64,000 bases of DNA from NCBI GenBank assembly GCA_023105745.1, contig JALGQZ010000003.1:74498696-74562695 (forward strand), in the 5' to 3' direction. The notes under the pieces were generated by a model. It had not been told where the DNA came from, made no database searches, and was given only the letters and a program-made list of their open reading frames with translations. Each line of letters starts with the position of its first letter. Position 1 is the stretch's first letter. Origin of the DNA: Austropuccinia psidii. Taxonomy: Eukaryota; Basidiomycota; Pucciniomycetes; Pucciniales; Sphaerophragmiaceae. Below are positions 27,965 to 51,888 of this stretch, piece by piece. The translations under genes and the position numbers were made by a program.

Positions 27965-28010
27965 CACCAGGGCGAATCTCGCGTCAATCGTCGGCGATTG
28001 ACTTCACGTC
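27965..28010 (+). repeat. Left terminal inverted repeat of the giant transposon
   Basis: This 46-bp repeat begins CACCAGGGCGAATCTCGCG. It contains an internal palindrome, CAATCG-TCGG-CGATTG. Compared with the right end it differs at two positions, both C here and T there, and both in CG context. It is preceded by AGA. Confidence 0.92.
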
Positions 28011-28330
28011 GCACCGCGGTCAGTATAAAAGCTTGCTTCAGTCGCGTTAGTGTCACTTTATAGTCACTGGATTTAGTGGGTCACGTCACGTCAGCGTCAA
28101 GACAACTTCAATCGTCACATGTGTCACATGAGAATGTCACTCAAAGCCCAAACCCATTTCAACACTATGCGCAACGTTCGTGTAATTTCACCTCATTGGC
28201 TTCCGCCTCCCCGACGCTTAGCATGCTTACGCACCCGCACTGCCCTCCATCCAGATGAGACTCCGCCACTGCCCGCCCCTCTCCGTCCTCACCACTCCTT
28301 ACACTTTCACACCCCCGCCCCTACCATCCT
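28011..28330. other. Left subterminal region of the giant transposon
   Basis: No gene is seen. ACGTCA words are clustered (near 28083-28100), the reverse complement of the TGACGT core found four times near the right end. A TATAAAAG at 28023-28030 could be a promoter element. Confidence 0.4.
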
Positions 28331-29040
28331 TACGCTTGTGTAGTACCCTCCCGACATGCCTCCGACAACGCTTACCATCCTTACGCTCATGTAGTGCCCT
28401 CCCGACATGCCCCCGACAACGCTTACCCTCCCTCCCGACATTCTCCCGACACTGCTTACCATCCTTACGCTCATGTAGTGCCCTCCCGACATGCCTCTGA
28501 CAACGCTTACCCTCCCTACAGACATTCTCCCGACACTGCTTACCATCCTTACGCTCATGTAGTGCCCTCCCGACATGCCTCCGACAACGCTTACCCTCCC
28601 TACAGACATTCTCCCGACACTGCTTACCATCCTTACGCTCATGTAGTGCCCTCCCGACATGCCTCCGACAACGCTTACCCTCCCTCCCGACATTCTCCCG
28701 ACACTGCTTACCATCCTTACATTCATGTAGTGCCCTCCCGACATGCCTCCGACAACGCTTACCCTTCCTACAGACATTCTCCCGACACCGCTTACCATCC
28801 TTACGCTCATGTAGTGCCCTCCCGACATGCCTCCGACAACGCTTACCCTCCCTCCCGACATTTTCCCGACACCGCTTACCATCCTTTCGCTCATGTAGTG
28901 CCCTCCCGACATGCCTCCGACAACGCTTACCCTCCCTCCCAACATTCTCCTGACACTGCTTACCATCCTTACGCTCATGTAGTGCCCTCCCGACATGCCT
29001 CCGACAACACTTACCCTCCTCACGCTTCTGTATTACATCC
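28331..29040. repeat. 84-bp tandem repeat array, about 8 copies
   Basis: Units of 84 bp begin near ACCATCCTTACGCTCATG (for example at 28458, 28542, 28626, 28710). Single-base differences and a few variants (TCCCGAC versus ACAGACA) separate them. Since 84 is 28 codons and no unit holds a stop in several frames, long open frames exist on both strands (plus 28394-29044, minus 28299-29156). I treat these as by-products of the repeat and not as genes. The position, 0.4-1.1 kb from the element end, fits a subterminal array. Confidence 0.9.
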
Positions 29041-29050
29041 ATAGTGTACA

Positions 29051-29072
29051 GTACGGTGGCTTGTTGGCGTAC
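29051..29072. other. 22-bp palindrome-like site P1 (degenerate)
   Basis: GTACGGTGGC...GGCGTAC: the outer GTACG/CGTAC arms pair and the centre does not. It is a member of the family seen best at 33841 and 38766. It lies between the left repeat array and gene A. Confidence 0.5.
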
Positions 29073-29572
29073 ACGATGAACGCAATTGCCGAAATATGCT
29101 GAGTGGCCTTCTCTGCCAACAGGACCTAAGGGGATATTGGTCAGTATATTCACCATGTTGTGGTTAGGGTTTAAATCATGAGACTCACAAATTAAAACCT
29201 AATAAGTGGACTATTTAAGACAAGAATTGTGTCTCCTGTTTTGCCGACAAAACTATTTTATTTCATATCAATCAAATGAACACTTTGCTTAGTCCTTACC
29301 TCATGAGCGTTGAATAGTTCAAAAGTTGACTTTAGTAGGTTTCTCACTAGTCAACTTTATTCAATGTCTCACAGGGAAGTGATTTCATTTGCATGATATG
29401 AAATAATTTGCAAAACATTGCCTCCTTCAATTTCCCGACAAATCGCATTTTGCAAATGCGATTATTTTACTTGCACCTTTTTTCTTGAATTTGGATCTTT
29501 TTATTCAAAAATTTTCAAACAAGTTATCAATCAACTCGTCACCATCTATTTGCTTAATAAACTACCTCCGCT
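29073..29572. other. Region upstream of gene A
   Basis: No coding sequence is recognised in this stretch, which would hold the promoter and 5' untranslated region of gene A. It carries no further palindrome. Confidence 0.3.
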
Positions 29573-31808
29573 ATGGCCCGAACCCCGGGAAATTCGACTG
29601 AATTCAATGAACGACCAACTTCAGCCCCAGAGAGTGGAAGTGAAATCTCTGATATCGCCAGTAGTCGTGAATTAGGCATTGAAGTAGAGAGCCAGTCACA
29701 TGAAGATAATCAAGATCCACCAGTTCTTCCAGAATGTGAGTATGCATCCATCTTGAATATTTCAAATCTCTCAAAACCTGATATTGTGTCATAGCCTTTA
29801 TTTCAGGTCAACCTCCAAGCGCTCAGAAACCAAATTTTAAAAGTTATGAGAAGGAAAAGACTGTTGAACCTTGTTCACCGACAGAAGATGATGGGCAAGA
29901 TGATGTAATTTTCAGTGGGGAGGTGGAAATTATATCCAAGGAACAATTTGTCTCCAACATTGCTCAAACAATCCCAAGGCTCGAAAAAATCCAAAATGAT
30001 AGTAAAATTCCTGATTATGTGCGTCAAAAGATTGCTGAAGCCATGAGCCTGCTCAAAATGGATTTGAACCGTAAGTCCATTAATAATTCAAAACAAAATT
30101 GATAAAAATAGCTGCTTACAATATATGGGCAGGTGTGGAGGTGGGAGAATCTCTACCTGAAGGATCTCGAGTCGTAATTGGATTTCCAGGCAAAGGATTA
30201 GGAAAAAGACCAAATATACATGCGACCAAAAAAACAAACAAAAAACGCCGTACCTTTGAAGCCGCAAACGATTCTCGCGATCAAGGTCATGAAATTATCA
30301 ATGTTGAAGGGGACCATATTGATAATCAACCTCCGCATACTGAACCCCCCCCAATACTCAATGAAACAATCCATGATGAAGCTCCACATACTGAAAGCCC
30401 CCCGAGACCCAATGAAACAATGCATGATGCAACCCCTCCCGCCTCTCCTCGGAATATTCAAGCCTTTCAAGAAAGGGAAACAATTAAAAATGATACAATG
30501 GGACGAGATATGACTGATATAATTCCCGACGCTGAGCCCGAAGTGTCATCTGCTGCGAATTTTCAAGGGATATTTTTATCCCGCATGGAAGAGTTTGCAG
30601 GCATTTTGAATTATCATTCCAATATTTCTCAACAATCATGGAAAAGGGGGCTTGATAATATCAATAGGATTTACAAAAATAGATGGGACAATTTACCAAC
30701 AAAGGATGCTCATACATTCCTTCCTGTTGGTATTAAGGTGATCAGTAACCGAGAGCTTAAAATGTCGGCCTGGCTGGAGGACCTTGAGATGGCAGGTGAG
30801 TTTTATCTTTGTGCATGATACATGATTATTGGCTGTTGACTGGTGATATAAATTGCAATATACAGGGTTAGATTTTTTTAAGCCAACCGAAACAGAAGCG
30901 TTTTTTGATCACAACATTTGGAATCTCAAATTGATGAAGGAATCAGCTAAACCTCCAGATAATCTCCCAAAATCAGAACACTCCTTCTTCAAAATGGTTC
31001 AGAGCCTTCTTTACCCCGCCAATCCAGTTAAACATTTTTGGGCAAATGTTATGTTTGAATCCATTAGTTTAGTCTCATACGATGTGATTGCACCCAAATC
31101 ATATGTTGCACCAACATCAAATTCGACCGATCCTCTTGGACTTGAACGGGGAGCAGTTGAATACCTTGCCTCCTGCTTGAGTAAATCGAAGCAACGTGCA
31201 ACCCAACTCAGCATTGAAGGTGGCGGGGCTGACAATGAGATATCCACAAAGCCGCACAAGAACCTGGAGGATCTAATGGATACAGTTATCCATTTGATGA
31301 TTGCGTACAACATGGTACGTGCACATACAAAGGTCGAAGTTAATGGCATCAAAGGCAAACTCACAAACTCAAAAAAAATGAGGCCATCAAAGATCTTTTG
31401 AGGTGTCACAAGAATCTCGGAATAAATCGAATTTGCTATGGTATATTAGCGGCATTCTGTGCGGCGGGGGTTTGTGGTTTGATGGTATGCTCAGATGACT
31501 GGAGAACAAGCTCAGTTAAAGGGGCTTTATCACTAATTGACATTTCCGCAAAACTTTCAGAAAGTAAAAATCTAGTGGAGCCAGTGTGGCTACGTACTAA
31601 TAAGTATATATGTGATTTACTGAATAAAAGTTTCTTCTCATCAGAGTCTTTTAACCCCGCTGTACCTCTTAGATTTGAATTTGCACGATGCTTAGTATTA
31701 GACTTTGGTGATGCCTGGGTGGCGAAACGCGGTCTTGGTTCAAGTGATGAGGTCACCTTGACGGTACCCAGGTCAGCTAAACTCACAACCAGGATTGACC
31801 CGTTTTAG
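29573..31808 (+). pseudogene. Unknown gene A of the giant transposon (multi-exon, one frameshift)
   Basis: I do not recognise the family. The start is ATG 29573 (MARTPGNSTEFNERP). Three introns with GT...AG ends keep the frame: 29736-29806, 30071-30132, 30796-30865. The N-terminal half is acidic and proline-rich with a basic patch (ATKKTNKKRR, a possible nuclear signal) and repeats of the type HTEPPPILNETIHDE. The second half is globular (FLSRMEEFAGILNYHSN, SFFKMVQSLLYPANPVKHFW, GINRICYGILAAFCAAGVCG). In a run of eight A at 31373-31380 the frame changes by one base; behind it the coding resumes to TAG at 31806. Expected length about 590 residues. With the frameshift this copy is probably inactive at the C-terminus. 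Confidence 0.65.
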
Positions 31809-32385: not shown

Positions 32386-33714
32386 ATGCCATTCACGAAA
32401 AAAGGAAAAGAGCGTAAAAGGGAACTCGCGAGAAAGCGTCGGGCTGAGGAAGGAAAGTGTGAGTTACTCGCTTAATCTCAGTGTATATATGCTTCCACAT
32501 TTATGTGGCACCCTCATTGGGCCCCACGGAAGAACATTGGCTTTAGTCGGTTCAGATTGTGCCAATGTCATGTGGGCTCCAACAGGGAAGTCAAAGGATG
32601 TGTGCCAAAGAAAGCTCCTTGGCAGTATCTGATATCTTGTGTGCTTCAACACATAGTGATCCCTCAACCACTCGGGAATAGTAGCAGATCCCAAAAGACA
32701 AATGAGCGCAAAACAAGCCGAATGAATAGGTTGTTTTCCTCCTCTCGCCCAACAGCACAAATATCAATGCCAGTATCAGCAAATATCACCCCAAGTGAAA
32801 TTCGGAGGGTTGTGGATGTCAATCAGATCAAACGCATTCACTTTGGCCGTGTGGCAATTTTCTCTTCAACCGGATTACTCATTGCCCTTGTCGAATTCCG
32901 ACCATTCACAACAATGAGTGAAGTCGAGGTCGATCAATGGGATGAATTATCACAATTCCTATTTCGCGAAAAGAGATTCACCGACCTGATTGCAACCAAT
33001 GGAGCATTACTGGAGGGATTTATGTTCGCAATTGGGTGGCGCAAATGCAGCACCAAGAATGAACAATTTGGTCTGTATGGAAGTGTTGGGAAAATTGAAA
33101 ACGCAAAAGATGAATGGCAGAACCGAGGTCCCAATCTTAGCTCGGTGGGTTGCATTCTAGGTCAATCCTTACGATATGTTGGGGATAATTTATTTGAGAG
33201 GATTCAAAATTGCTACAATTCATTGGGGGTTCCGTCTTTTGATCAAGTCAACTATGAAGGCGATATTCCGGCAAATCAGGGTGCATTCGAGTTCGCTTCC
33301 GCACTCACTTTCACCATGAATGGATTCAAAAACTCACCTCATCTTGATAAGGATGCATCGCTGTATGCTTTGGGATGGTGGTTTCAAGCTGATAAGCGGA
33401 CCAGCCAAATTCAAAGAGATGCGTCAAAGCGGTGTACAGGTGGAAAATTGATTTTCCCAAATGAGCATTTTTGGATTGATCTATCCGCATGTCATGGGCT
33501 CATTCAGGTAGTGTGAGCCAGTAGTACATTTGTTCATTATACTGATCCAGCACAGGACAACGAAAGCACGACACTAGTGGGTATGTCCGCACAATGTTCA
33601 AGCAGGTTAGCAAAAACAATGCGGCAAAAAAGCCATGGCTATTATGAGATTGCCGAGAGAGCGGGCTATCAAATCAGGGATGGTAATACAATCTCATGCC
33701 AATTCAAAGATTGA
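32386..33714 (+). pseudogene. TET/JBP-like 2OG-Fe(II) oxygenase, one in-frame TGA
   Basis: A short basic first exon (MPFTKKGKERKRELARKRR, 32386-32458, donor GTGAGT) is followed by an intron whose acceptor I cannot fix. From about 32760 the protein is continuous: VDVNQIKRIHFGRVAIF, FTTMSEVEVDQWDELSQF, ATNGALLEGFMFAIGWRK, FASALTFTMNGFKNSPHLDKD. The HxD iron-binding pair is H 33340-33342 and D 33346-33348. GGKLIFPNEHFWIDLSACHG follows, and the distal iron ligand is the His of FVHYTDP (33535-33537). A TGA at 33514-33516 stands where I expect TGG (Trp); coding then continues to TGA 33712. This matches the Tet-like oxygenases of basidiomycetes, relatives of enzymes that oxidise 5-methylcytosine or thymine in DNA. 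The activity here is inferred. Confidence 0.8.
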
Positions 33715-33840
33715 GGAGATTTGCATGTGTGTTGGGTAAGTAATGGTGGGGTAAGGAAGAGGACAATATACACAAGGATTGGATGGATTCTAGTGCGGGA
33801 GATGGGGTGTCTGACATGAAAAAGGGGTGAAGTGGATTAT

Positions 33841-33862
33841 GTACGGTGGCATGCCATCGTAC
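33841..33862. other. 22-bp palindrome P3
   Basis: Half-site GTACGGTGGCA followed by its inverse with one mismatch (TGCCATCGTAC). It is 126 bp after the end of the oxygenase gene, in the gap between convergent genes B and C. Confidence 0.75.
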
Positions 33863-33894
33863 ATCTGTCCTGGTTTGTTGCTATTGTCCAGGAT

Positions 33895-34440
33895 GCCAAT
33901 GCTTCACACGCGAATCCTCATGCTTGTGCAGGTTCTGACAATGCTAAAAGTTCCTTACGCCTATGCGGGGTGCCAACGCTACACACGCCAATCCTTGGGC
34001 CTGTGCAGGCTCCCGAAAATTTACACGCCAATCCTTACGCCTTTACAGGCTTTCGACGATTCACACGCCAATTCTTACGCTTGTGAAGCTTCCCCACAAT
34101 GCTGAAAATTTCTTGGCCTGTGCAGGATCCCAAGAATTCACACGCCAATTCTTACGCCTGTGCAGGCTCCCAACAATTCACACGCCAATCCTTATGCTTG
34201 TGAAGGGTCCCAAAAGTGCTAAAATTCCTTACGCCTGTACAGGCTTCCGACGATTCACACGCCAATCCTTACGCATGGGAGGGTTGCCAACAATGCTGAC
34301 AAATTCTTACGCCTGTGCAGGCTCCCAACAATTCACACGCCAATCCTTATGCCTGTGCAGGCTCCCAACAATTCACACGCCAATCCTTACGCCTGTGCAG
34401 CCTCCCGACAAGTCACACGCCAATCCTTTTGCTTTTTAAG
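33895..34440. repeat. 40-bp minisatellite array, about 12 decayed copies
   Basis: The unit is close to CAGGCTCCCAACAATTCACA plus CGCCAATCCTTACGCCTGTG, seen cleanly at 34317-34396 and with drift further left. Open frames across it are repeat artefacts. It lies between the oxygenase and the Zn2Cys6 gene. Confidence 0.85.
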
Positions 34441-34869
34441 GTTCCAGACAATTTAAACAATTTGATACATGAGTAAGATTAATAGCGTGTGACCATAGGA
34501 AAGGCCATGTTTCACGAATCTGGACTGGATTGCTCACATACGGGAACCTGCCGCTTTTTTACAGTTAAGAATGGATATGGCTCTAAACCATGGAAGAAGA
34601 AAATATAGGAGACGGTAATGGTAACTATTGGCGCATTTTGGGAAAAAGAGGTTCACAAAAACAAATACTCACTCAAACTCTTGGTGGGGCACTTACAAAA
34701 ATAATTCTCACGCAATCAGGGTTTTTCTCTAAGGAGGAAATATATAATTTTTACGTGAACAAAGAATGTAATAGAAATTGAACATAAAAATGATTGAATA
34801 CAAATAGCTTATTTAAAAGAAAGTATTACAAAAGATAAAAAGTGGAAATAATGAGATTTTTTTAATTTT
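34441..34869. other. Spacer 3' of the Zn2Cys6 gene
   Basis: No supported gene. A 63-codon plus-strand open frame (34590-34781) has no recognisable features. The region would contain the terminator of the minus-strand gene. Confidence 0.3.
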
Positions 34870-36243
34870 TTATTTTTCTAAGTATTTTGAGACTATTCCG
34901 GTAATGTCCTCCTTTGGATAAGCCTCCAGTGCCTGGGCAAGGAGGCGGTTTAGTTCGTCCCGGAATTCCCGGTGCAGCTCATTTCGATGAGTTGCATCCA
35001 CGAAAGGAATCATGTGGAGCAAGCAACGATGCTCCAACAAGATTTGGTTGATCGAATCGTGGACGATAGCTCGAGGAATCATTAGGGTCGGTCGCAGGTC
35101 GGTGAATTCGTGGGAATGAGACGAGCTTGGCACCGGGGGGGAGGAGGCGTTGGGGTTCTCGGGGGCACTGGAAGGGATATCTGGGGAGGGAACCGGGGTT
35201 GGAGTGGAGGGGGGGGAATGGAAGGGGAAGGTGGGCGAGTCGGGTAAGAAGAAGGGGGAGGGGGATGGGGATTGGGAATTGGGGATCCCACGGGCGTATC
35301 GTCGATGATGATGATCGAGCGAGGAGTGGCGGGACGATCTGGAGATGGTCAAAGAAAAGGTGAGGAAAAGTTGAGAGGAGTGAAGAAAGAGAAGTGGTGA
35401 CTTACCATTAGGTTCCTCCGTGGATTGCGTAGGAGCCACCTCAGGTTCTGGCTCACAAGTCGTATTGTCCTCAGGTGGTTGGGACGATGGACTTGGGCCA
35501 GGAATAGGTGGCTCTTCCGTTTGGGAGGGTTCTAGAAAAGGAGTAAGAGTCAGTTCACTCGACTCGAAAGTGAAAGTGAAAATGAAATGAAACTTTGGCT
35601 GCTTACCGCGGAATAATTCCTCAGACCATCGGGTGCCACTCGGGCCTGGAGTGGGTTGCCAGGGGGTTTGCTCGCGAGGCAAACTAGCAACGGGAGAGTC
35701 TTGTCGGGGGGGATTCGGGGGGTTTTGTTCTATGCGAAATGGAAAAAAGTCAATATTATTGCGTGAAGAGAAATGAGATAAGGAGGAGAAAGAAAACTTA
35801 CTTTGGCGTTTGAATCCCATCGGTGACAAGACATGGTGACGATCAGCCCAAGCTCGAATGTCCTCTCGCCATCGCCATCCTTCATTGGCCGGATAATCAC
35901 TTCGCTCCGGTCGAGGAGTGAAGTGACCATCGGATGGTGGCCTAGGAGGGGGAGTGGACAAATCGATACTGGAGGGGACAGGGCTAATCGTCCGGAATCG
36001 TTCCCGTTGGCCTGTTTGGGGGCCCAGCGTCCATTCACGCTCGGAAATGGTTTCATCATCGCCGACCACAAAGGAGTCCTTGCGAGGGCGTCTTGGGCGA
36101 GAACTCCTCTGGCCTCGTGGTCGGAAGGGGCGGACAACGAACGAACATTTCTTGTGTGCTTGTCGGCAAGCATCACAAGCGTCGTTCGTTGTCGAGGAAC
36201 GAATGCAGGGGATACCCTGCTTGGTGCATAAAGTGCACGACAT
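34870..36243 (-). pseudogene. Zn(II)2Cys6-cluster protein, proline-rich (gene C), probable frameshift
   Basis: Start ATG at 36243 (minus). Residues 3-33 carry C-x2-C-x6-C-x9-C-x2-C-x6-C, the spacing of the fungal Zn(II)2Cys6 DNA-binding cluster, with basic residues behind it (RPRGQRSSRPRRPRKD). A long Pro/Ser-rich part follows, then a helical C-terminus (IPRAIVHDSINQILLEH, LLAQALEAYPKEDITGIVSKY). Three introns fit GT-AG rules: 35730-35801, 35532-35606 and 35339-35405. After the third, the sensible frame (RSIIIIDDTPVGSP) differs by one from the frame of the C-terminus, so a base is probably lost or gained among the G-runs at 35130-35220. By family it would be a transcription factor in the nucleus; its targets are unknown. 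Confidence 0.7.
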
Positions 36244-36821: not shown

Positions 36822-37568
36822 GCTGAGTATTTCAATTTATTGAATTGTCAAGCTGAGTCAAATCCCCTTTGTTTCCTTAAATTGCCACCCGATCACCCAG
36901 GAGGGTGGTCGTGAGGCCCTTGTTGAATGTGCATTGTGGGTGCAATGCACAAGTGACCCATGCAGATATGCACCCGGTGCATTTGGTCACAAGTGACCGC
37001 AGCAAGATCACCGGCCTTATGGCCTGGTGATAGTATTTGAACAAAGGGGGGGGCTGTAGGACAAGTGAATACAGCGTGAGCTTGCCTCGACCCATTGCTC
37101 AGGTTTGCTTTTGGGTCATAATTGAAATGCTCAGTGGCTGAACATTTTAATTGCACAGTAATTGAACAATTGATATAACAATATCAAATGCACCGCTGAG
37201 TATTGCAATTTATTAAATTGTCAAGCTGAGTCAAATCCCCTTTCTTTCCTTAAATAGCCACCCGATCACCCGGGAGGGTGGTCGTGAGGCCCTTGTTGAA
37301 TGTGCATTGTGGGTGGAATGCACAAGTGACCCATGCAGAAATGCACCCGGTGCATTTGGTCACAAGTGACCGCGGCAATATTACCAGCCGTATGGCTTGG
37401 TAATAGTATGTGAACAAAGGGGGGGCTGTAACACAAGTGAATACAGCGTGAGCTTGCCTCGACCCATTGCTTAGCTTTGCTTTCGGGTCATAATTGAAAT
37501 GCTCAGTGGCTGAACATTTTAATTGCACAGTAATTGAACGATTGATATAACAATATCAAATGCACCAT
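36822..37568. repeat. Two tandem copies of a 373-bp unit
   Basis: Copy 1 is 36822-37194 and copy 2 is 37195-37568, both starting GCTGAGTATT and containing GAGGGTGGTCGTGAGGCCC and TTTAATTGCACAGTAATTG. They differ by scattered substitutions. No coding potential is evident; the short open frames in both copies are equivalent and appear spurious. Confidence 0.85.
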
Positions 37569-38763
37569 GCTGAGCCATTGCTCAGTCGTCTTTGTATGCC
37601 CACAATCTGAGCATTTGGCACAGCATCGGGTGACATTTCAGCCAGCTGCAGCATTTCACACGCTTTGGTGAAGTGCTCCAAACTGAGCCTTCCAATGAAC
37701 TATTGCAAAAATAGTTCATTCCATGGCTTTACTGAGCACTTTCACACGGTGCTTTTGACCATGATATGCTCAGCTTGCGTGTGCAAATCGGGTGAAACGC
37801 AATGCTGAGCATGTGGCACATGAGCTACGTATATGCAAACGATCCGAAGGTGCATGCACATTCGCTATATGCATGCAGGCTCAAGTAGTATAACACCTTC
37901 CTGATCTGTACAGCCAACACTGTAGTACACAGTACACCTGTGTAAATGTATGCTGCGGGGCAGAGCAAAAGCTGTTCAGCAATGTAACATGAAAATCACG
38001 TCAAGCCATTGAGTCAAATATCTCAACTGCATACCTTTGGTGCACCTTTTTGCAGAGCTCTGCCTAACAATGGCATAGACGCGGGTGTAATCCGAGTTAA
38101 TGAAAGTGGGTCATAATGGGATGACTTATTATTTGGGTAATACACAAACAGTGGATTCACTCCGGTGCCATTGTCGGGGCCAACAATGACTGGCCCTGCT
38201 TGTTCATTGGCGGGAAGCCACACGCTTTCATACGCACCCCCGATGGGTCATACGCAGGCAACTTTCACACGCCTGGAAGACATTTGACTGCCAGTCTTCC
38301 AGCTGCCTATTTTCTTGGTCGGGTTGTCAGCGTGACTGCAGACGCTCACCCGCTTGCGCGTGGAAACCTGAGGCCAATCAGTGTGGATTTGCTTCAGCCT
38401 CATCCACATTAGAATAACAATCCCAGCCTATGATTGCTGAGGCTGGACATGTTTGCGTGGGTATCTCCCACCGCGGGTCATTTTCTTCACGTTCTCACAC
38501 ACCCCGCCCAAGTTGTGGCACCTGGCTTGCAGCCAAAAAATCCCTTGGGCGTGTGGCCTCTTTCCTCCGGAGTTCTGTACGCGCGTGAGGCAAAGACCCG
38601 GATGCCAATCTCGGTAGATTAGTACTCGCCTCAAACGCCATAGGGGTGAATGTATATGTGGATCACGGCTCACGGCTGGCGCCCCCTTTGATCATCCCAC
38701 ACATTCCCCCCTGAAAGCCCAGTATGCATCAGTCAGCAAAAAACTTCAGGCAAAACCAAAGTC
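37569..38763. other. Non-coding interval between gene C and the SNF2 gene
   Basis: No gene I can support. The GCTGAG/GCTCAG word continues until about 37840. Several short open frames lack any family features. Confidence 0.35.
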
Positions 38764-38789
38764 ATGTTCGGTGGCATGCCACCGAACAT
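38764..38789. other. 26-bp perfect palindrome P4
   Basis: ATGTTCGGTGGCA is followed directly by its exact inverse, giving a perfect 26-bp palindrome. It is the best member of the palindrome family and lies in the divergent gap between the Zn2Cys6 and SNF2 genes. Confidence 0.85.
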
Positions 38790-38900
38790 AACTCACCCGC
38801 CCACACACAAACATCCCTACAGTGAGATTGCCCTTTGAAACTGCCAACATTGCCCAGTAGGTCCCTGTGCAACAATTAACCTGGGGAGGATACGCTCATT

Positions 38901-39289: not shown

Positions 39290-41857
39290 ATGTCAACCCC
39301 TTCACAACCACTTTGCATTGGGATGATTAATATTTGTATTCAAATAAATAGTGATATAACCTTAAAGCCTGAGAATTCCCACTTAGGTTCTTGGATTATC
39401 CTATGGTACAATCAACACAACATATTCGTATATCTCCCCAATCACCAGCATGCTATTGGCTCTCTCCCGGGAACCCTTTCCCAAACGTTGATACCATTCC
39501 TTGGGGCACCAAAAACGTTCATGCACTGTGGTCCTGGTGGGGCATGGATTGAAAATTGCCAAACCAATCCTACTCAAATATTATTTGTTGAGGGAGTATT
39601 TATGACTGATGCCAATGATCCCTCCTCATCTCAGAAACCCAATCTAGCATTGATGTTCTTCACATGGTATCCAAACATTCTATTCATAATGGAAAGCTTT
39701 CGAACGCAAGATTTCAAGCTTAAAATGCCCAAAGAATATGACTGTACTACTCATTGTCAATGTCAACTCTTTACTCCGACATTTCCCGCTTCAAACTCGA
39801 CGCCTGCTTCATATCCTGCTGTTTCATCATTGATTTCCAAGCAAAAACTGATACAATTACCCAGTGGATCAGACCTCCCCATGATGACCCCGCCCCATGC
39901 CATTATTCAAACCCCCCTCCTCCCTCATCAAAAGACCGGACTAGCGTTTCTCTGGGATCGAGAAATCCCCAATGGCCAATCAGCCCGTAACCTTTGGGCC
40001 ACCTCACCCCCAGGATCCACTTTCAATGCCAGGCACATCATTACAAACAAGGTCGTTAGCTCATTTGAATCCCTTTCGACCAATACCCCTCTTGGAGGCC
40101 TGCTCGCGGATGATATGGGATTAGGTAAAACCATTCAGGCCATTGCTCTAATTGGTACCTCCAAGGAGCGGATGATTGCAAACCCCCATCGCTCCACGCC
40201 CACCATGATCATCTGCCCCCCTCGCTTAATTACCAACTGGCAATCAGAAATATCCAAGCATGCTCAGGCTGGAGCGCTGCATTCCAAAATCTACCATGGT
40301 CCCACTCGTCACTCATTATCCAAAGACGACATCTTAAAAAATGATATCATCATCACTTCTTACAATACTATCACCCAAGAATTTAAGCAAACCAATCCCT
40401 CTACATCATTCATTTTTCAAATCAATTGGCATCGTATAATTTTGGATGAAGCACAGTGAGTGGCTGAGCTTAAATGATTCAAATTACCTTTTATATCCAA
40501 TAACCCTTGCCCCATCTTATAGCTATATTCGCTCTCAATACACTGCCACTCACCGTGCCATTAATAGCCTCCTTTCATCCCGTCGAATATGTTTAACGGG
40601 CACACCTATTCACAACACCATTTATGACCTTTTGGGCATAATATCATTCATCACTCAACCCCAGAGCGCCAATCAAGATAACTGGTCACCATTTATCCTG
40701 AGTAGTCTTTCCAAAGGTTGCAATGATATCTTGCATTTGGCATTGCGGCATTTAAGTTTGCGCCGCACCAAAACCACACATCTCGAATCCCTCCCCACTA
40801 TTAGCCATCATTATGAGCTGCTCCCACTCAACCCGACCATGCAGCAAGAATATTCCATATTATATGAAGAATTCCTATCATCCAAAAGCAAAGCACCAGG
40901 AGAATTTTTCAGAAATATTAATAAGCTGCGAATATGTTGTAACCATCACATCATGCTTAACACAATTGCGGAGGCGGATTTGGAAGACCCCGAGGGCAGG
41001 AGCACTCAGGATAAATCGCCAACAATCACACGAACTATTGTGGATGTCGAAACATGCATGATGAGTAGTAAAATTGCCCACCTCCTACAAAGATTAATGA
41101 AGAACAAACAAACAAGGTGTGGTCCAACCAAATCGGTGGTTTACTCCCAATGGACCCAATATCTAGATTTGTGCGTTAATTCTAATATGCATCCATTACC
41201 AATTGAATCCATCTGACTTTTTTATATTGTAGAATTGGTATTGCCCTTGCCCATCACTCTATCATTTCAGCACGAATTGATGGAACAATTACAGCACGAG
41301 CACAGGAGAAGGCACTGGATACTTTCTTCAATAATCCTGAATGTGAAGTACTGATTGCATCCATTGCCGCAGCTGGAACTGGCCTCAATATAACTTGTGC
41401 TAATACGGTCTATTTAATGGTGAGGGGACCCCCAAAATTCTGCCCTGATTTGCGGCCCCTGACATCCACATTTCCAGGAGCCCAATTGGAACCCAGCCAT
41501 TGAGGCTCAGGCTGTTGATCGTCTACATCGTATTGGCCAACAACGACCTGTACAGGTCATCCACTATATCACTCCTCATTCAGTTGAGGTCAACATGCGG
41601 AAGGTACCTTTCAAGATCATCTTTGAGCCTAATTGTATTTCTATTCTAAAATCCTTCCTTATGGAAATGCCATTTTCCAAACACCAATAGGTCCAAGAAA
41701 AGAAAAAATCATTAACTGCGTGAGCCTTACTGATATTCTATAATTTGTGTTTGACCGAGTTGATAACTCTTGTTCACCCTGGCATAGGTCCACAATTATG
41801 AACACCATGAGTTGGATCGAACTCCTTCAATATTTCCTCAATGAAAATGAGCAATAG
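39290..41857 (+). CDS. SNF2-family ATPase (RAD5/RAD16-like core), intact
   Basis: The start is ATG 39290 (MSTPSQPLCIG). Five GT-AG introns (40456-40522, 41171-41232, 41420-41477, 41604-41690, 41720-41787) leave 2226 coding bases, 741 residues, without a stop. Motifs: PLLPHQKTGLAFLWDRE, Walker A DDMGLGKT (about 274-281), DEAH (386-389, the His codon split by intron 1), LTGTPIHNTIYDLLG, and helicase-C motifs ASIAAAGTGLNITCANTVYLM and VDRLHRIGQQRPVQV. RAD5, RAD16 and HLTF usually carry a RING finger between the lobes; none is visible here. The family uses ATP to translocate on DNA and move nucleosomes or proteins. Trypanosome JBP2 fuses an SNF2 and a TET/JBP domain, which makes the neighbourhood with the oxygenase notable. 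Confidence 0.9.
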
Positions 41858-42028: not shown

Positions 42029-44090
42029 TTATTGCAGAGCATCACCATTCGGCCTAATAACTGGCATGTCAAGTATTTTGAGGGCGCTAGTCTGCATCTT
42101 ACTACAGCCTTTGAGCCAATCTTGATCAAATAGCTGAAATGATAAGCCTTCCGGAATATCACCATCATCTGTCGAGCGTAATTCTGGCAATCTATCAATA
42201 GTTTTTTTACCCTTTTTTTTAATGCGATTACAAAACTCTATGTCTCGATCCATTTTTAATACCAATTCATTAAATAACTGGGAGCGCCAGCGTAATCCCA
42301 CTTTGCAGTAAACTTGACGGCCATTTTCCAGTACCTCCTCAGTATCTGAACATACTCGAGGGTCATTGAATTGTGATGCTAGAATGGGAAATTTAGCCGT
42401 ATCACACCATTCACGACGGCGCTCACAGGTCTGCACATAATGAAGTAGATCATCATCAGTCTTTGCTCACAATGAAGAAGAGAGACATTAACTAACCCTT
42501 TGACGAATCTTTGCGAGCTTTTGATTCTCCTTCTTTTTAACCAAATACTCGGCATCCTTTTGAATAGACTTCCATTCTCTTTTCAAATAAGTGAAATATC
42601 GCTCCATTAAAGCCGCTACGACCCCATAGTTATTATGATCCTTGTTCCAACAGTAATGATGATACTCGGTGCTGACCAGTGCAAGACGGAATGTACGGTA
42701 AAACACCATAGACATGAGCTCATTGAACGGATGTTGCCATGAGCTCTCCCAGTCCCAAGTGAATCGCTTTAGTCCTAGCTTGTGGAGCTCATTTTCGCAG
42801 TAGCTTTGGAAACCCTGAGACTGAACCTGTGTTGATGGCTCATTGAAAACATCCTCGGGGACATATCCGAGATGACCAGCCACTTGAATTGCAATCTCAC
42901 GCTCTTCTGTGCTTGGTGGTGCTGGTAGTGAGGAAAAATCCTTATCTCTAACTTTGAGTAGGAACAGGCAATGTGCGTGTACTGCTGATCTCATTCCATG
43001 GACATTCTCTGGAAGTTCTGCTTTCAGCCATTTTTGTTGCTCCTTCTGGCTTGCACGTTTCACCACATTGTGAGCTTTACGAGCCTGGTTCCTTTGCTGT
43101 CTGACCTCGGATTGTTCAAGCATACTCTGGGCAAGGGGCATTTGAGGATGGGTGAACTCATTATTTGACTGAGTGCCATGATCATGCGCCGTGAAATTGT
43201 CACTCCTTGGTTCATCATTTGTTTCCATTTGAGTCGGAGACATGTTCTCATCCTCATCATCCACCATTTTTTCTCTTGATGAACTGGCATGAGCTGTTCT
43301 TGGTTTGGAGGAATATGGATGATGACGTCCAGTGACTTTCTCTTTATGGACCAGAGGTGAAGATGCATAAAGTTCATCACCTGCCATGCACATCATCAGT
43401 TAACACATCAAAAAATTAATGAAGACTGGTCATACTCACAATCTTCAATTGGCTCCTGAGATCGGACTGACTTGCCTTTAGGTGCCATATCTAACCCATG
43501 AAACAAACATATCAAATTGTGAAAAAGGTTATACACCAAAATTAAAATGACTTACTTTGATGAAGCGTCAATCCTGGATTTCCCTCCGACAGACCACTCC
43601 AAGTTACATTCTCCAATGGTCTTTTTTGTCGTCCCCCATCCACGTGCCTTTCATGAACCACATGAACCTGAGATCCTGATGGAATATTGAGGGTTGGCTG
43701 TTTACTTTGGCCAAAGGGATCCTGGGATGCGACTGGATTCCGACCGGGATTAAGGAGGAACTCACGTGGATATTTTGATTGGGGATTAGCGTGTGATGAC
43801 ATTTGAGGTGTGCCTTCCGGCCCCTCAGACACATGCATTTGTGTATTAGTGGGATTCGGGGGAATTGGAGTGACGGAAATATTTGGGATCGACCAAGTGC
43901 TTGAAGTTGGAGCCTTTGGATTGCCCACATCAATGTTAAGACCTGATACATTCATTGAGGATGCGATAGGGGTTGTGAGAGGAATGTTGGGGCTCAATGG
44001 TGACTGTGTTTGAACATATTCTATGCTAGATTCACTATTTGAGTCATGAACAGAACCTGAACGGGATTTATGTGACTTGAAAGATGACAT
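42029..44090 (-). CDS. Unknown gene D of the giant transposon, intact
   Basis: I do not recognise it. Start ATG 44090 (MSSFKSHKSRSGSVHDSN), stop TAA 42029. Introns 43491-43555, 43381-43439 and 42431-42496 follow GT-AG rules and leave 1872 bases, 623 residues, without lesion. The first 300 residues are Ser/Pro/Asn-rich and look disordered. The middle is basic and helical (RQQRNQARKAHNVVKRASQKEQQKW), then comes a globular part rich in aromatic residues (GLKRFTWDWESSWQHPFNEL, STEYHHYCWNKDHNNYG, RYFTYLKREWKSIQKDAEYL) and a C-terminal part (CERRREWCDTAKFPILASQF). It faces the SNF2 gene tail to tail (171 bp) and diverges from the transposase. CACTA elements often encode a second DNA-binding protein beside the transposase; this could be such a partner, which is inference only. 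Confidence 0.75.
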
Positions 44091-45051
44091 AAGGGCCGAA
44101 AAAGTACAGTAATATTTTTAACTAGATAAAACACCTCAGTATTATGATAAAATAGAGTGATATGAGATGAAATCTTTTCAAATTTAGAATAGAGAAATTC
44201 TATGAATAGTTGGAACTAAGTGTTGCGTGAAAGTCCAATAAGCCTCTTTTTAGGAGAATCCTCCCTGCCTCCTCTTGAGCTCCTCCGCTTTTATCGGAAA
44301 CCACCCGGCACGGCCTACCACCATATAATGTAATATTTCCTTGATCTCAAAGGGGACCCATCATCCATAAGTAAACATATTTGGTAACATTTCTGCCTCC
44401 CCATTGTCACATTTTGTGAATTATCCAAACTGCCAATATATGCATTGAAATTCCACAGCATTGTACATCTGTAAAGGGGTATATTCATGAAGGATTTACC
44501 CACAAAAGAGACATCACCTTTACAAGAAAGGCAAAATAATCCAAATCACACTCCAACCGATTAAAAGCCTGCTGCACTCAAACCAAATACCAAGACTTTA
44601 GGTACACTCCAACCTTTTATGTAATAGAGTTATATCGTTATGTCTGTAATAAGGTTTAAGCCATGTACGATGGCGTGCCAGCGTGCATGGTTTGAATGTC
44701 AATCCCCTCAAATCAATGTTGACACATCCCTATTGGAACACCCCTCAAGGGTCAAAACCGCAGTATCGCCATGTGTAAATAAAATAGTATATGTATGAGC
44801 ATTGAGCAGCATGGCATTTTACCCAATTAAACTCCTAACCAATTCCGCCATCCAGATGAGACATGTTACACTCCATCAGCTGCAGCTCACGCACCATTAC
44901 AAATGGGATAAAATTCTCAGATGCCTCAAATCATCTCCCCCTTCATAAATAATCACTCAATTTTTTTTCCAATTAATAACACTCCTAAACACTTTCACAT
45001 CAGCCATAGATATTTATACACAAACCAACCGTACTCCCAATTCCTGCAACA
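44091..45051. other. Divergent promoter region between gene D and the Tnp2 gene
   Basis: This 961-bp gap without a gene contains palindrome P6 at 44665-44686. Promoters of both flanking genes must lie here. No other structure was recognised. Confidence 0.45.
44665..44686. other. 22-bp palindrome P6
   Basis: GTACGATGGCG facing TGCCAGCGTGC, an imperfect member of the family, in the divergent gap between gene D and the transposase. Confidence 0.65.
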
Positions 45052-48000
45052 ATGACAACCCGCCGCTATTCCTCAATGCGTATATGCATGTGTCAACACT
45101 GCTCAACTCAAACACACCCTTCCCCTGAGGGTGATAGGCCTGGAGTTGCCTTCACACCTTTCCAATATAAACAGCACATTAAAAAGCTCAAATCAAGCAT
45201 TGCACCCAAATCTCTTCCAAACATCCCTACTTCTGCATCAGGATCTGAGTGCCCACAACTTCTTTTGGATCAAATATTCCCAGCTGATTATTCACCATTG
45301 ACCCAAAGCACCTTCTCCACAGCACAGGGGCTCAATTCAATTGCACAGAAACCATACAGCAGCAGTCAAACCCTTCCTCCACAAGACCTTGGAATGATAA
45401 TATCTGCCATTCTATCATTAAGGTATAATATACCCCGCCGGGCTTCACGCATTCTCAACCCCGCCCTAAACCTGCTGATCAAGTCCAGCATCTCAAGCTC
45501 CGGTGGTCCCCCCATTCCTGCATTCCATATACCTCAAGATCTGAGTACCATATTTGAACATCTCCAATTGGAGCCAGTGATTCAAAACTATATATGTTGT
45601 CCTCAATGTTTCTCTCTTAATGGCCTTACTGAATCAGTCACAACTGACCAACCCCACTGTCAACGCCATAATGACCCAAATGATCATGATCCCCCTTGCA
45701 CACAATCATTAGGAAAATTCATCTATTCATCTGCCCCCCCACACCCAAAACACAACCAACATGAAGCAAAAATTTATACCAACAAAACGTTTCATTTATC
45801 AACCATTCAAAAATTGGCTTGCCAGATTTCTCCAGCGGGCTGGAATTATGGACATTCTGCATCAACATCAACAATCCCAAACTCCCGAAGATTCCCCAAA
45901 ACGTGACGTCTGGGATGGATTGGTCTGGAGACGCTTCACTGGCACTAGAAATATCCATGACCCCCCATTCATGTCCATTCCTGGTGCATTGGCCTTCTCC
46001 ATATATGTTGACTGGTTTAATGCACATGGAAAGTCAACCCGGTTGGCTAGCATTGGACCTATCATGCTTATTTGTCTTAATCTCCCCCCAAGTGAAAGAT
46101 TGAAGCCCGAGAATGTCTATGTTGCAGGAATCATCCCTGGTCCAAAGGAGCCAACTGCGCTTCAATTGAATTATCTATTAATGCCACTCATCAACGAGCT
46201 CAAAGAGCTATGGCAAGGTTACCATTTTGCACCCACCTCAACAGGTCCATCAGGATCCTTTATCCGTGTTGCCATCCTCACAGCCATTGCGGATGTGGTT
46301 GCCATGCGCAAGCTTACTGGATTTATTTCCCATTCAGGAAACCACTTTTGTAATTTTTTCACCATTCACAAAGCTCAAATTGATGAAATTGGTCCTCAAT
46401 TTCACTACACGCGCTCATACCAAAGTCATAAATCAACCATTGCCAAATGGCTTCGGGCAACCCCACAACAAAGACAAGCAATTTTCTCTGAGTATGGAGT
46501 GCGATATTCAATTTTGGAAGACCTTCCGTATTGGGATGCAACCAGAATGGTTAATCTTGACATAATGCATAATTTAATACTTGGAATTTTGAAGGATCAT
46601 GCAACTTTCAAATTGTGCATTCCAGAGGCGAAATCAAAAATTTACTTCAGGTCCCGCAGGAAATCCAATGACACCAACAGTTCAGACTCAGATTCCATGA
46701 CCTCCAACAGCTCTCTTGATAAAATCACATTGAGAGAGGCCCGCTCCCTGAGAAGAGACGCAGCAAAAATAATAAATGAGCCACTCCCCACTATTTCCAC
46801 CCGAAAAAACTACTTCCCAATGCCCACCCCTAACACAGAACATCCATCTAGTGGTTCTGCGGAGATTCCTTCATTTGATGCTGATTACATCCCCACTTCT
46901 GAAATCCCCTCTGAATTGGATATCACTGCACTGAGTGATCACCAGATGTAAGGTTTGACTATGAAACAATAAGTAAAAATTACTAATTTATTACTTATTG
47001 TACTCTGAATGTCCTTATAATTGAAATAAATAAGATTAAAATAAGAATAATAATAAAGAAATATTATTATTATGGCGTAAAAATATTATATTATTAAATA
47101 AATATAATAATATAATTAATATTATATGAAATTATAATATTATAAATAATATATTAATATAAAATAATTAATATATTATAAAGCTCTTTATTATTGTTAC
47201 CAACTAATAATAAAGGCGTAAAAAATTGTTTTTTATTAATAAAAAACAATTAATAACAATAATATTACTAATATTAAAGTTATGAATTAATATAAATACT
47301 ATTTATATTAATTAAAGAATTATTAATAGAGTAATAATAGAGAAATTATTATAATAAGAGAAAATAACCTACTTTTAACACTTAGTATAATAATTTTGAA
47401 GTATTTTACGCCCAAAAATATAAATACAACTTTTTCAAATTGTACTTACAATAAAAATAAAGAAAAATTACAAATTATTCTGGATTTTTACGTGGAAATG
47501 AGTTATTAGAGAGATTTTTAACAAAAACAATTAAATAAATGATTTAATCACGTCAAAATAGATGATTATAGCAAGGTGGTATTTGGTCTTTAATAATATA
47601 ACAGTTTTATATATAAAGAATAAAGAAATTACCTTTGATTTAATTGATTTAATGTTTTTGATGCGTCTGAGGGGAAAACAGAGTAAAAAGAGCTCTATTT
47701 ATAGTAAATACCTCCCTCCTAGAGTCCAACAGGCTTCTAGTAGACGTGTACTGATCATATCCACTGGAATTGATCAATATTTTAAGGTTTGAGGGTGATT
47801 ACATCATGATCAAACCATATTACATCATTATTACACCATTATTTAGAGTTATCACTATAACTCTAAGTGTGATGACATCAGAGGCTTGGCAGAACCCCAA
47901 ATTTCGTGGATTTTATTAGTTTTAATCATAAACTAATAGTATTCACCAATATTATCACTATTAAGACTGTTAAACTTAATTTAAGGTTGCAGTATGTGAT

Positions 48001-50245
48001 CATAACAGCTCAATTTAAGCTCAAACTTTGATCCTCAATAACTTTTAAGGTTTTCACGCTACAGCAATTCAGAGAGTGAATTCTGATAGCCTGACATAAC
48101 CTTATTATGCTGCCAAGAGCTTTTCATTACATCATCAAAACTCTAATTTTGATGATTTTTCTTGTAACTCATCTTTTCTGTCGAAATTCAATATTTTAAA
48201 CTTCAAACCTTGATTTCAGGGGGTTATACCCTGAATTTAATAATAAAAATTACGTCATTCTTCACGAATGAACTAGTAGAATCCAACTGTGTACTTTTTT
48301 TTAAGTTTGGAGCACTTTCACAACAAAGTGATCAACAGCTCTGTTGATTTTTATCAATATTTCATCATAGGTTTTAACCTTGTTTATAACTTGTAAAATA
48401 AAGTTCATATCTGTGTTCTTACAGTAATTACTTGGTAACTTTATTTTTGGTTCATCATTCTATCATGTATATTTTAGAAGATATTAGCTATGATCACTGA
48501 ATATATGCGTTGACCAAAAAAGTGCATATATTCAGGATAATTCCTTAAGTATTGATTTTGGGAATTAGCTTATTAATTGTTTTATATGTGGACTTTTGTG
48601 AGGAATCCACTGGTACAATTTATTTCACATGTTGTTTCATTAGTTTCTGAGATAAATAAGGTTTTATGATTTTTATAAGGTATTATACCTTATAATTCCT
48701 TAAATATTGACTTTACAGATATGCCATAAAAGTGGTATATGTGTATTTCTCCATGGGGAATCCAATGGTATAATTTATTTCACATGTTCACTCATTGGTT
48801 TTTAAGTTAAACCAATTTTAGTACCAATTTATGGTATTTTTTGTATATTTGAGTAATTATTTTTAGTGTATAATTATTCTAATTAATTTTAATATAATTA
48901 TATTAAAGGTATAATTATTATTAATCTTTTTTGTGACCTTATTGGATATGTGGTCATATCTCAAAGGCTCACACCAGATCAAGGGTGAGGCTCTGGAGCA
49001 TCTCCGACAAATCATATCTGAGACAATAATTCCCTCATCATGGACAAGAGTACCTCGCAACATGGGTTCCCCCTCTCATGGCAGCTTAAAAGCCGCTGAA
49101 TGGGCTCTCTTATATAAGGTCTATATTCCATTTTTCATGCTCAGTCAACAGATGTCATTAGATGTACACCAATCCGCCAACATTCAAAGGCAAATGGGTC
49201 AGTCAGAAGAACTTGGAAATGAACTAACCAAGAATACATTCCATTTGATTAGTTCTATCAACATTGCCACAAGTTGGACTGTTTCAATAGGAGATGCGAC
49301 TGCATTTGCTGAACATTGGAAAAAATTCCGCCTTTCCAATCAACTCCTGTTCCCAAAACAGAAAAGTAAACCAAATCATCATTTTGCTGACCATATTCCC
49401 GAACTCTTCCAACGTTGGGGCCCAGCACAAGCCTCAGCCACATGGGGTTATGAGCGCTTGATTGGAGTATTTGCAAAAATGCCAACAAATAACAAAATAT
49501 GTATGTCAATTAATAAGATCAATATATTCACATTGATTAAACACCTGAACTGAATAAGATTAACTTCTTACAACTCTAAATAGATGATATAGATAAAACC
49601 TTACTTCAACATATCTGTCGATGTTCCAACCTTTTCGTTCTCCTGAAATCCCCATCCGTGCCATGTGAAATAAAACAGCTTTTCGAATCACAGCCACCTG
49701 CCCTGTTCAATCACCATAAATATAACAAACCATCCCGCCATGACCAAGAAAATTATGATTGCCTGGTTGAGTACTTACAGAATTTTCATGCAACAAGGGA
49801 AATAGTTGATTGGATCAGCTTAGACACTACCATGCAATCCACAAGTCATCTCACTTCAAGGATTGTCTCACCTTGGTATTTTCCAGTTTCAAACATTAAT
49901 ATTGGGAACAATATATTTTCAACTGAATCCAAAAATGTCAGCAACAGTGTGATATGTTTTCTGAGGGGCAACTCACGACAATTTGGTATTATTAATAGCA
50001 TTTTTAAAGTCTCTGAGCCATCTAGCATACTGAACAATAACTTTCTGATCTTAAAAACTTTGAAGATTGATGTGAATTTCTTACCAGATTGGCCGCATCT
50101 GAATATTTATAAAGCTGTTGGTTTTGATGATGGACACTTGATTATATCTGAAGAAGAAATAGAAGGTAACTGTGGATTGTATGATAACAAAGTTCTGTCA
50201 TGTGGACTGCTTGTAATGATAAAGCCGTTATTTCATGAAATTTAG
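45052..50245 (+). pseudogene. Tnp2-type (CACTA/Plavaka-like) transposase, split by a solo LTR
   Basis: Start ATG 45052 (MTTRRYSSMRICMCQHC, an N-terminal Cys motif). A second Cys/His cluster (CCPQCFSLNG, CQRHNDP) follows. Near 45730-45765 the frame changes by one base. Coding continues with FKNWLARFLQRAGIMDIL, DVWDGLVWRRF, YVAGIIPGPKEPTALQLNYL and MVNLDIMHNLILGILKDH, all typical of Tnp2 transposases. At 46946 a 2027-bp solo LTR (46947-48973) interrupts. The frame resumes in register with EALEHLRQIISETIIPSSW, VPRNMGSPSHGSLKAAEW, HHFADHIPELFQRWGP and YERLIGVFAKMPTNNKI. A GT-AG intron (49501-49583) precedes the last exon, ending TAG 50243. It would cut and join the inverted ends; this copy cannot make a full protein. 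Confidence 0.85.
46947..48973 (+). mobile_element. Solo LTR (family F) inside the Tnp2 gene
   Basis: It begins TGTAAGGTTTGACTATG, ends AAAGGCTCACA, is 2027 bp long, and is flanked by the 5-bp duplication CCAGA (46942-46946 and 48974-48978). It is very AT-rich and has no transposon genes. Its start matches the LTR at 58657, and its last 1.1 kb match 56834-57914. It was inserted after the giant transposon had formed. Confidence 0.9.
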
Positions 50246-50480
50246 TCTACAGAAATGCAAATATCTCAGATTCATTAGCAATTTTGCTAGTGAAATAACT
50301 GCCTCAAAATTTATTGACAGAGACATGCCATTGTGACAAGCAAAGCCCATTATTTCACATTGCCACAAAGAACTTACTATTTTGACATTTGGTTACAGTG
50401 TGAATAAGCCAAGTTCAATGATCAAATGACCCACACACTCACCTTTCACAGCATCCAAAATTTCTAACTGCGCCATCATC

Positions 50481-51600
50481 ATGTTGGAAGGGGAAGCGGC
50501 CCTTGCACACACGCCAATGCACACGCAAGCGCACCCGCACACGCCAATGCACACGCAAGCGCACCTGCACACGCCAATGCACACGCAAGCGCAACTGCAC
50601 CCACACACGCGGTATTGTGCGGCGGGCTCTACCAGTGTCACCTGCAAAACGACAATCCCGCTCAGGTGGAGTCCTTTCATGGACGACCTGGTGAAGTCAA
50701 ACCCCCCGCCAAAATTGCTAACGGCGCCATCATCATGTAGGAAGGGGAAGCGACCCTTGCGCACCCGCACCCGCAAGCGCAAGCGCACCCGCACACGCCA
50801 ATGCACACGCAAGCGCACCCGCACCCGCACACGCGGTATTGTGCGGCGGGCTCTACCAGTGTCACCTGCAAAACGACAATCCCGCTCAGGCGGAGTCCTT
50901 TCATGGACGACCTGGTGAAGTCAAACCCCCCGCCAAAATTGCTAACGGCGCCATCATCATGTAGGAAGGGGAAGCGACCCTTGCGCACCCGCACCCGCAC
51001 ACGCCAATGCACACGCAAGCGCACCTGCACCCGCACACGCGGTATTGTGCGGCGGGCTCTACCAGTGTCACCTGCAAAACGACAATCCCGCTCAGGCGGA
51101 GTCCTTTCATGGACGACCTGGTGAAGTCAAACCCCCTGCCAAAATTGCTAACGGCGCCATCATCATGTAGGAAGGGGAAGCGACCCTTGCGCACCCGCAC
51201 CCGCACACGCCAATGCACACGCAAGCGCACCCGCACCCGCACACGTGGTATTGTGCGGCAGGCTCTACCAGTGTCACCTGCAAAACGACAATCCCGCTCA
51301 GGCGGAGTCCTTTCATGGACGACATGGTGAAGTCAAACCCCCCGCCAAAATTGCTAACGGCGCCATCATCATGTAGGAAGGGGAAGCGACCCTTGCGCAC
51401 CTGCACCCGCACGCGCCAATGCACACGCAAGCGCACCCGCACACGCCAATGCACACGCAAGCGCACCCGCACCCGCACACGCACACGCGGTATTGTGCGG
51501 CGGGCCCTACCAGTGTCACCTGCAAAACGACAATCCCGCTCAGGCGGAGTCCTTTTATGGATGACCTGGTGAAGTCAAACCCCCCGCCTACATCAAGACT
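50481..51600. repeat. Right subterminal array: five copies of a 206-bp unit with GC-rich minisatellite
   Basis: GGTATTGTGCGGC recurs at 50611, 50835, 51041, 51247 and 51489. Most spacings are 206 bp; the longer ones (224 and 242) are due to extra copies of a short CACGCCAATGCACACGCAAG-type sub-repeat. Each unit also carries CCTTTCATGGACGACCTGG and ACGGCGCCATCATCATG. Open frames on both strands are caused by the repeat. It sits 0.3-1.4 kb from the right end, mirroring the left array. The gap 50246-50480 before it holds no gene. Confidence 0.9.
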
Positions 51601-51775
51601 GGCTGAAGGACCTCTTTGATGTGTGTGTTTGCAAACAGGCGGGTCTTGGGTAATTTTTACCAACCATTGGACGGTTGCGGGATGATCAGGTGGTGAGGAA
51701 TCTGAGTTGAAGGCACAGCGGAACCAATATTGGTGGATGTCACAGGATTTGGTGTAAGAAAAGAGTAGGACGTGT

Positions 51776-51844
51776 GCTTGACGTTCGCTTGATTTTTGCT
51801 TGACGTGAGCTCGACTTTTATCCTGCTTGACGTTTGCTTGACGT
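51776..51844. promoter_or_regulatory. Four GCTTGACGT motifs beside the right TIR
   Basis: Exact GCTTGACGT occurs at 51776, 51798, 51825 and 51836, plus a variant at 51787. Short subterminal motifs in one orientation near the ends are known as transposase-binding sites in CACTA elements such as En/Spm. The role here is inferred from position. Confidence 0.55.
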
Positions 51845-51885
51845 GAAGTCAATCGCCGACGATTGACACAAGATTCGCCCTGGTG
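51840..51885 (-). repeat. Right terminal inverted repeat of the giant transposon
   Basis: This is the 46-bp inverse of 27965-28010 with two mismatches (44 of 46). It ends CGCCCTGGTG and is followed by AGA, the target duplication, after which the gypsy B reverse transcriptase continues. Confidence 0.92.
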
Positions 51886-51888
51886 AGA

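Follow-up and report, generated by a model that had tools for sequence, protein, structure and literature searches.

Fungal transposons repeatedly acquire TET genes, and the locus described here bears on the reason. Within a window of 64,000 nucleotides (the whole stretch of DNA analyzed), a unit of 23,921 bp at positions 27965-51885 carries a TET/JBP-like gene and an SNF2 ATPase gene alongside a Tnp2-type transposase gene and three further genes. The reading we lean toward is that this is a 24-kb CACTA/EnSpm-type element, probably from the myrtle rust fungus Austropuccinia psidii, and that its additional genes, including TET and SNF2, probably form an anti-silencing kit, which would keep it readable although the host genome methylates transposons at CpG. 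The TET-like and SNF2-type products are predicted to oxidize methylated DNA and to remodel chromatin, respectively, and would likely aid the element's escape from methylation. With TET and SNF2 together in one element, and with repeat motifs that within the window occur in it alone, the idea that TET serves escape from silencing becomes testable.

The borders of the unit are precise. The sequence-only reading had described 46-bp inverted ends, an AGA on both sides, and a gypsy reverse transcriptase that continues in register once the unit and one AGA are discounted, and direct comparison of the sequences confirmed all three. The left terminal inverted repeat (27965-28010, forward strand) starts CACCAGGGCGAATCT, and the right one (51840-51885, reverse strand) is its reverse complement at 44 of 46 positions; these are the longest of the 14 inverted pairs listed for 27900-52000, and the outer 15 bases of the ends have no other exact occurrence within the window. 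The AGA target-site duplication lies at 27962-27964 and 51886-51888. When the unit and one AGA are removed, a single reverse transcriptase frame crosses the site until a stop further on; the interrupted gene is gypsy-type by eye (a protease precedes the reverse transcriptase, which has YIDD), and its left piece alone gives a weak RVT_1 match in Pfam (E 0.02). CpG content also steps at both borders, with counts per 500-bp bin of 0 and 2 outside and 38 and 31 inside on the left, and of 41 and 37 inside and 0 and 1 outside on the right. CpG observed/expected is 0.67 over the whole unit versus 0.09 (24100-27964) and 0.02 (51886-54645) in the flanks. The ends, the AGA, the frame and the CpG step thus uphold the earlier description of a sharply delimited unit. 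As for the order of events, the gypsy-type element was present first and the unit later entered its reverse transcriptase. The long terminal repeats (LTRs) of this host element (21913-24099 and 54646-56833) are 95.5% alike, and nearly all CpG is gone from its inner part.

Judged by its ends and genes, the unit is a CACTA/EnSpm-type DNA transposon with TET. It combines CAC..GTG inverted ends, a 3-bp duplication and a Tnp2-type transposase, as EnSpm/CACTA elements do, and the TET/JBP gene that defines a TET+ DNA transposon lies between both ends. Its ends read CACCA..TGGTG, whereas Plavaka ends are CATCA..TGATG or TGT..ACA, and the Plavaka transposase profile reached 23.1 bits against a cut-off of 26.3. 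The KDZ group (Kyakuja, Dileera, Zisupton) makes 7- or 8-bp duplications as opposed to 3 bp, and no KDZ family appeared among the Pfam matches. The type first proposed, CACTA/Tnp2 with TET and SNF2, is therefore supported by the ends together with matches to PF02992, PF20515 and PF00176. The transposase gene itself (45053-50245, forward strand, 3' end provisional) matches PF02992 (Transposase_21) at 1.7e-14, above the cut-off, over profile positions 8-148 of 213. Of the D, D, C(2)C, H(3-4)H, E motif set of EnSpm/CACTA transposases, YVDW and AD are recognizable by eye, and CNFF stands at the C(2)C site, which in this copy has lost its second Cys. The reading frame shifts at a point between about 45713 and 45770, and the gene is also split by a solo LTR of 2,027 bp (46947-48973, TG..CA, CCAGA on both sides), which is an insertion and not cargo; part of it (47853-48888) is 83.6% alike to 56832-57870, to the right of the unit.

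The TET/JBP-like gene (32386-33714, forward strand) matches PF20515 at 9.2e-39 over 32476-33516. The window copy retains HxD (as HLD), and its catalytic triad is incomplete, an in-frame TGA at 33514-33516, close to the domain end, cutting the domain short. The relatives P0202 and P0208 read on past the site of this stop, so TET versions without it exist, and in P0208 the domain reaches profile position 210 of 211. A short intron spanning the stop, modeled in three ways, was rejected, as it would remove residues kept in P0208.

The SNF2 ATPase gene (39290-41857, forward strand) is open, with six exons, GT-AG introns and 741 aa. It matches PF00176 (1.1e-30 and 5.4e-14) and Helicase_C (1.1e-6), and all helicase motifs are present in the window copy; they are mostly kept in nine sister copies where these are covered, motif VI being covered in none of the nine. 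Our protein searches admitted only relatives of 0.55-1.75 times the query length. Among the best 120 of 4,646 SNF2 matches, the nine relatives at 74-84% identity all belong to A. psidii MF-1; of the other 111, the best of those spanning at least half the query is 34% identical and covers 70% of it. RAD5, HLTF, RAD16 and TTF2 make up much of these 120, Rad5/HLTF/TTF2-type ATPases being the best outside matches; the unit's protein differs from them in its low identity and in that Pfam reported no RING domain. The closest solved-structure match of one relative (P0001) is RAD5 (5e-32), and a scan of viral contigs with the same relative found none related to it.

Two of the remaining genes matched A. 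psidii proteins only. Orphan gene A (29573-31808, forward strand; exons 29573-29735, 29807-30070, 30133-30795 and from 30866 on) shifts its reading frame within an A homopolymer near 31366-31375; the relatives P0168 and P0169 have no such shift. Orphan gene B (42029-44090, reverse strand) is open, with four exons and 623 aa. All 47 relatives of A and all 43 of B (E <= 1e-3) are named A. psidii MF-1; judging by these protein names and those of the nine best SNF2 relatives, the host is very likely A. psidii. A Pfam scan of the gene pieces gave no accepted domain for either orphan. Pfam on the 43 B relatives returned four weak families, the best at 6e-4, each in at most 3 of the 43. Structure models had too little confidence to be used in a fold search (mean pLDDT 45.7 for A, from P0168, and 53.6 for B, from P0121), the B model appearing mostly helical or disordered, and a sequence search of the PDB with P0168 gave nothing at E 1 or below.

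Breaks therefore affect three of the six gene regions (TET, orphan A and the transposase); once ordinary introns are removed, SNF2 and orphan B read through without interruption. With these three broken, the window copy is probably not autonomous and would move only when helped by intact relatives. The frame changes at homopolymer runs in orphan A and the transposase may be mutations or sequencing errors. The earlier idea that everything between the ends arrived or moved as one unit holds for the borders and needs qualifying for the interior, given the breaks in three genes and the nested solo LTR.

To see how far the gene set recurs, we ran tblastn between the window and all 99 A. psidii relatives (9 of SNF2, 43 of B and 47 of A); they come from short contigs, under 20 kb in 96 cases. 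Six of the 47 orphan A relatives run into TET (P0172, P0193, P0198, P0202, P0208 and P0210), four include the region of an 84-bp minisatellite (P0169, P0192, P0199 and P0207), and P0210 additionally matches the array behind TET. These fused gene models place minisatellite, A, TET and array together in other copies, and the relatives as a whole place the unit in a multi-copy family in A. psidii. The right half (SNF2, orphan B and the transposase) would be a heritable set on the strength of the window copy alone. Of the proposal that the six genes are one cargo set, then, the left part stands and the right half is seen in this copy only.

The same relatives carry a record of CpG loss. Where the window has a CGN arginine codon, the relative keeps arginine in 25% of 138 comparisons for SNF2, 29% of 449 for B and 24% of 363 for A (for which 46 of the 47 relatives were used); at AGR codons the figures are 49% of 39, 85% of 394 and 66% of 155. 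A window arginine faces Cys, His, Gln or Trp in a relative 593 times, and the reverse occurs 87 times, 74 of them in B. We read this arginine loss as the signature of CpG having turned into TpG/CpA; it suggests that the family is subject to CpG methylation and that the window holds one of its less eroded copies. CpG methylation has probably worn down both the sister copies and the older gypsy-type host element. This pattern agrees with published work on A. psidii, the consulted parts of which report that its transposons are CpG-methylated, that the older ones are CpG-poor and that CACTA is the second-ranking transposon class (PMC12774611; PMC8063080). A chromosome-level A. psidii assembly with 5-methylcytosine (5mC) calls also exists (PMC12774611). 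That sister copies retain only about a quarter of the CGN arginines suggests that any protection is brief.

Two motifs recur in the non-coding parts of the element and are candidate cis-targets of its cargo. The 17-nt core TCCTTACGCNNNTGNAG occurs 8 times in the tandem array of an 84-bp unit (28322-29019) and 9 times in the array of an about 40-bp unit behind TET (33952-34452). These 17 matches at up to one mismatch are all that the window holds, where 0.03 would be expected; copies inside one array are not independent, and the point is that the core is common to both arrays. The tandem arrays at the right end (50455-51588, 206-bp and shorter units) lack the core. The second motif is the 24-bp dyad TGTNCGNTGGCATGCCANCGNACA, which has four matches in the window (0, 0, 2 and 3 mismatches), all intergenic within the unit, and none in 100 shuffles. 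One lies behind TET (33840-33863, of the form CGG-N10-TCG), two before SNF2 (38765-38788, a perfect palindrome of the form CGG-N10-CCG, and 38900-38923, with 3 mismatches) and one between gene B and the transposase gene, which are read divergently (44664-44687, 2 mismatches). Two weaker sites, one with 3 mismatches at 29051 and one with 4 at 31928, are suggestive at most, since six sites outside the unit also fit at 4 mismatches. GTCA repeats mark the left subterminal region (28011-28314; 10 versus 2.7 expected, reached in 0 of 1000 shuffles), and the right subterminal region shows no excess of GTCA (4 versus 2.7, 294 of 1000 shuffles) and a weak one of CGTCA (3 versus 0.6, 23 of 1000). Since the core, dyad and subterminal patterns were all derived from the sequence itself, these chance figures overstate the surprise. 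We also considered the dyads as marks of a nested element and rejected this, there being no second long inverted-end pair among the 14 inverted pairs.

CGG-N10-CCG is the type of site bound by Zn2Cys6 dimers such as yeast Put3, and a candidate for such a protein lies in the unit itself. The gene at 34870-36243 (reverse strand), which had been called Zn2Cys6, has the fitting cysteine spacing by eye (CX2CX6CX9CX2CX6C) and falls below the Pfam cut-off (Zn_clus 16.1 bits versus 21), so that the name goes by the spacing.

These parts allow a mechanism to be drawn, in which the genes, motifs and CpG decay are observed and each action is conjectural. The Zn2Cys6-like or an orphan protein would bind the cores, dyads and ends of the element; the SNF2 protein would open chromatin or move nucleosomes at the bound sites; the TET protein would oxidize nearby 5mC; and promoters and ends would become usable, so that the transposase could find free ends and move the unit. 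In its strongest form, this would be a self-contained and self-targeting DNA-demethylation machine, whose own binder reads the 17-nt core and the CGG-N10-CCG dyad and recruits the element's own SNF2 and TET, a version that we offer tentatively and consider rather doubtful. Were it true, genes and ends would be freed from CpG methylation briefly, before deamination ruins each copy. If TET helps the element to escape silencing at all, methylation should dip at cores, dyads and ends only in families with intact TET and SNF2. More generally, we infer, as the sequence-only reading did, that the cargo may adjust DNA modification or chromatin around the element's copies.

Several observations weigh against an anti-silencing role. 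The TET gene is broken in the window copy, and sister copies decay despite having TET genes. By tblastn, none of the 9 SNF2 relatives and none of the 43 orphan B relatives carries a piece of another unit gene. Protein binding at the core or the dyad is a guess, and the Zn2Cys6 domain stays below the Pfam cut-off. Moreover, copies of other repeats in the window, at 1-6 kb and 14-22 kb, have likewise kept CpG (0.51-0.77 per 2-kb bin), so that youth alone would explain the CpG of the unit, and we rejected high CpG as proof of TET protection for the same reason. A large CACTA element that had gained its genes by chance, with TET perhaps useful and SNF2 not, or neither, would produce much of this: a right-half linkage seen in one copy, three broken genes and continuing CpG decay in the sister copies. 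Such passive cargo would less readily explain an SNF2 gene that is open and complete in its motifs and has close A. psidii relatives, or the linkage of TET and A in other copies, or the recurrence of TET genes, most of them with their frames preserved, across a large number of transposon lineages, as reported in the consulted sections of Kojima 2025 (PMC12730594), and we regard it as possible but unlikely.

The cargo could also serve purposes other than the element's own methylation, with the TET-made base used in transcription control or replication timing and the SNF2 protein acting as a Rad5/Rad16-type helper in the repair of excision gaps. The RAD5 match of P0001 and the frequency of RAD5, HLTF, RAD16 and TTF2 among the best 120 matches would suit a repair helper, and Kojima, in the sections consulted, leaves further TET products possible (PMC12730594). 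Rad5-type function sits poorly with the lack of a RING match in Pfam, and the plain CpG decay in the family makes 5mC the obvious target; we consider this explanation improbable. It is more improbable still, to the point of being hardly credible, that the unit is a false join, an assembly accident or several nested elements. Two frame changes do sit at homopolymer runs, as sequencing errors do, and one nested solo LTR is certain, but the matching AGA, the in-register frame and the change in CpG content exactly at each border all speak for a real insertion, a second long inverted-end pair is lacking among the 14 listed, and the left gene order is found again in the separate MF-1 assembly.

Two known systems offer precedents for the anti-silencing reading. 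Maize En/Spm has CACTA ends, like the unit, and subterminal repeats, to which the GTCA repeats at the unit's left end may correspond. Its protein TnpA, which is no oxygenase, is said to switch on the element when methylated; we know of no TET or SNF2 gene in Spm. To our knowledge, VANDAL elements likewise have neither gene. VANDAL elements are plant MuDR-type, whereas the unit is CACTA, and no VANC relative is reported here. The likeness to VANDAL/VANC of Arabidopsis lies in the proposed logic of an own anti-silencing protein acting on non-coding tandem-repeat targets, VANC's targets being often tandem repeats in its own elements, according to the consulted parts of PMC5735166. The unit shows candidate repeat targets only.

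Nearest in kind are the TET+ EnSpm elements of Kojima 2025, whose consulted text (PMC12730594) describes three such families in Puccinia striiformis with CAC..GTG ends and 3-bp duplications and notes related EnSpm families in A. psidii. Like the unit, the elements of P. striiformis and Agaricus bisporus have CAC..GTG ends, a 3-bp duplication, a TET/JBP gene inside and an EnSpm-like transposase with weak Plavaka likeness (PMC12730594). Unlike the unit, they are not said to carry SNF2 in that text (PMC12730594), and the unit's orphans A and B match A. psidii proteins only. Targeted literature searches, covering titles and the starts of abstracts, likewise found no SNF2 cargo in TET+ or CACTA elements. 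The claim that the system was undescribed therefore stands only in part: the kind, TET+ CACTA, was already known from print, and SNF2 and the shared repeat motifs appear to be the new parts. If the self-targeting version is right, this would be, as far as the literature searched goes, the first described transposon to pair a methylcytosine oxidase with a chromatin remodeler.

Some further features of the locus were seen in passing. Each terminal repeat contains an imperfect 20-bp palindrome, GTCAATCG TCGG CGATTGAC (27983-28002 and 51848-51867). Within the unit, CpG observed/expected is highest in the end-proximal arrays (1.13 at 28300-29040 and 1.02 at 50450-51590), which could stem from array turnover or local protection, and lowest in the transposase gene (0.37-0.39). 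The Zn2Cys6-like gene differs in composition from the other unit genes (GC 0.54, CpG observed/expected 0.94, TpG 0.92 versus 1.25-1.57) and is perhaps a late arrival in the unit; upstream of it is a tandem doubling of about 373 bp (36822-37574, 94% alike). The 5-bp flanks of the LTR pair of the gypsy-type host element differ (CAGCC on the left, CTATA on the right), and one side may therefore be rearranged. Finally, 931-6893 and 16027-21913 form a pair of direct copies (98% alike in an alignment of 5,965 columns) that contain tandem repeats of 132 and 62 bp, have kept their CpG and end at the LTR starting at 21913.

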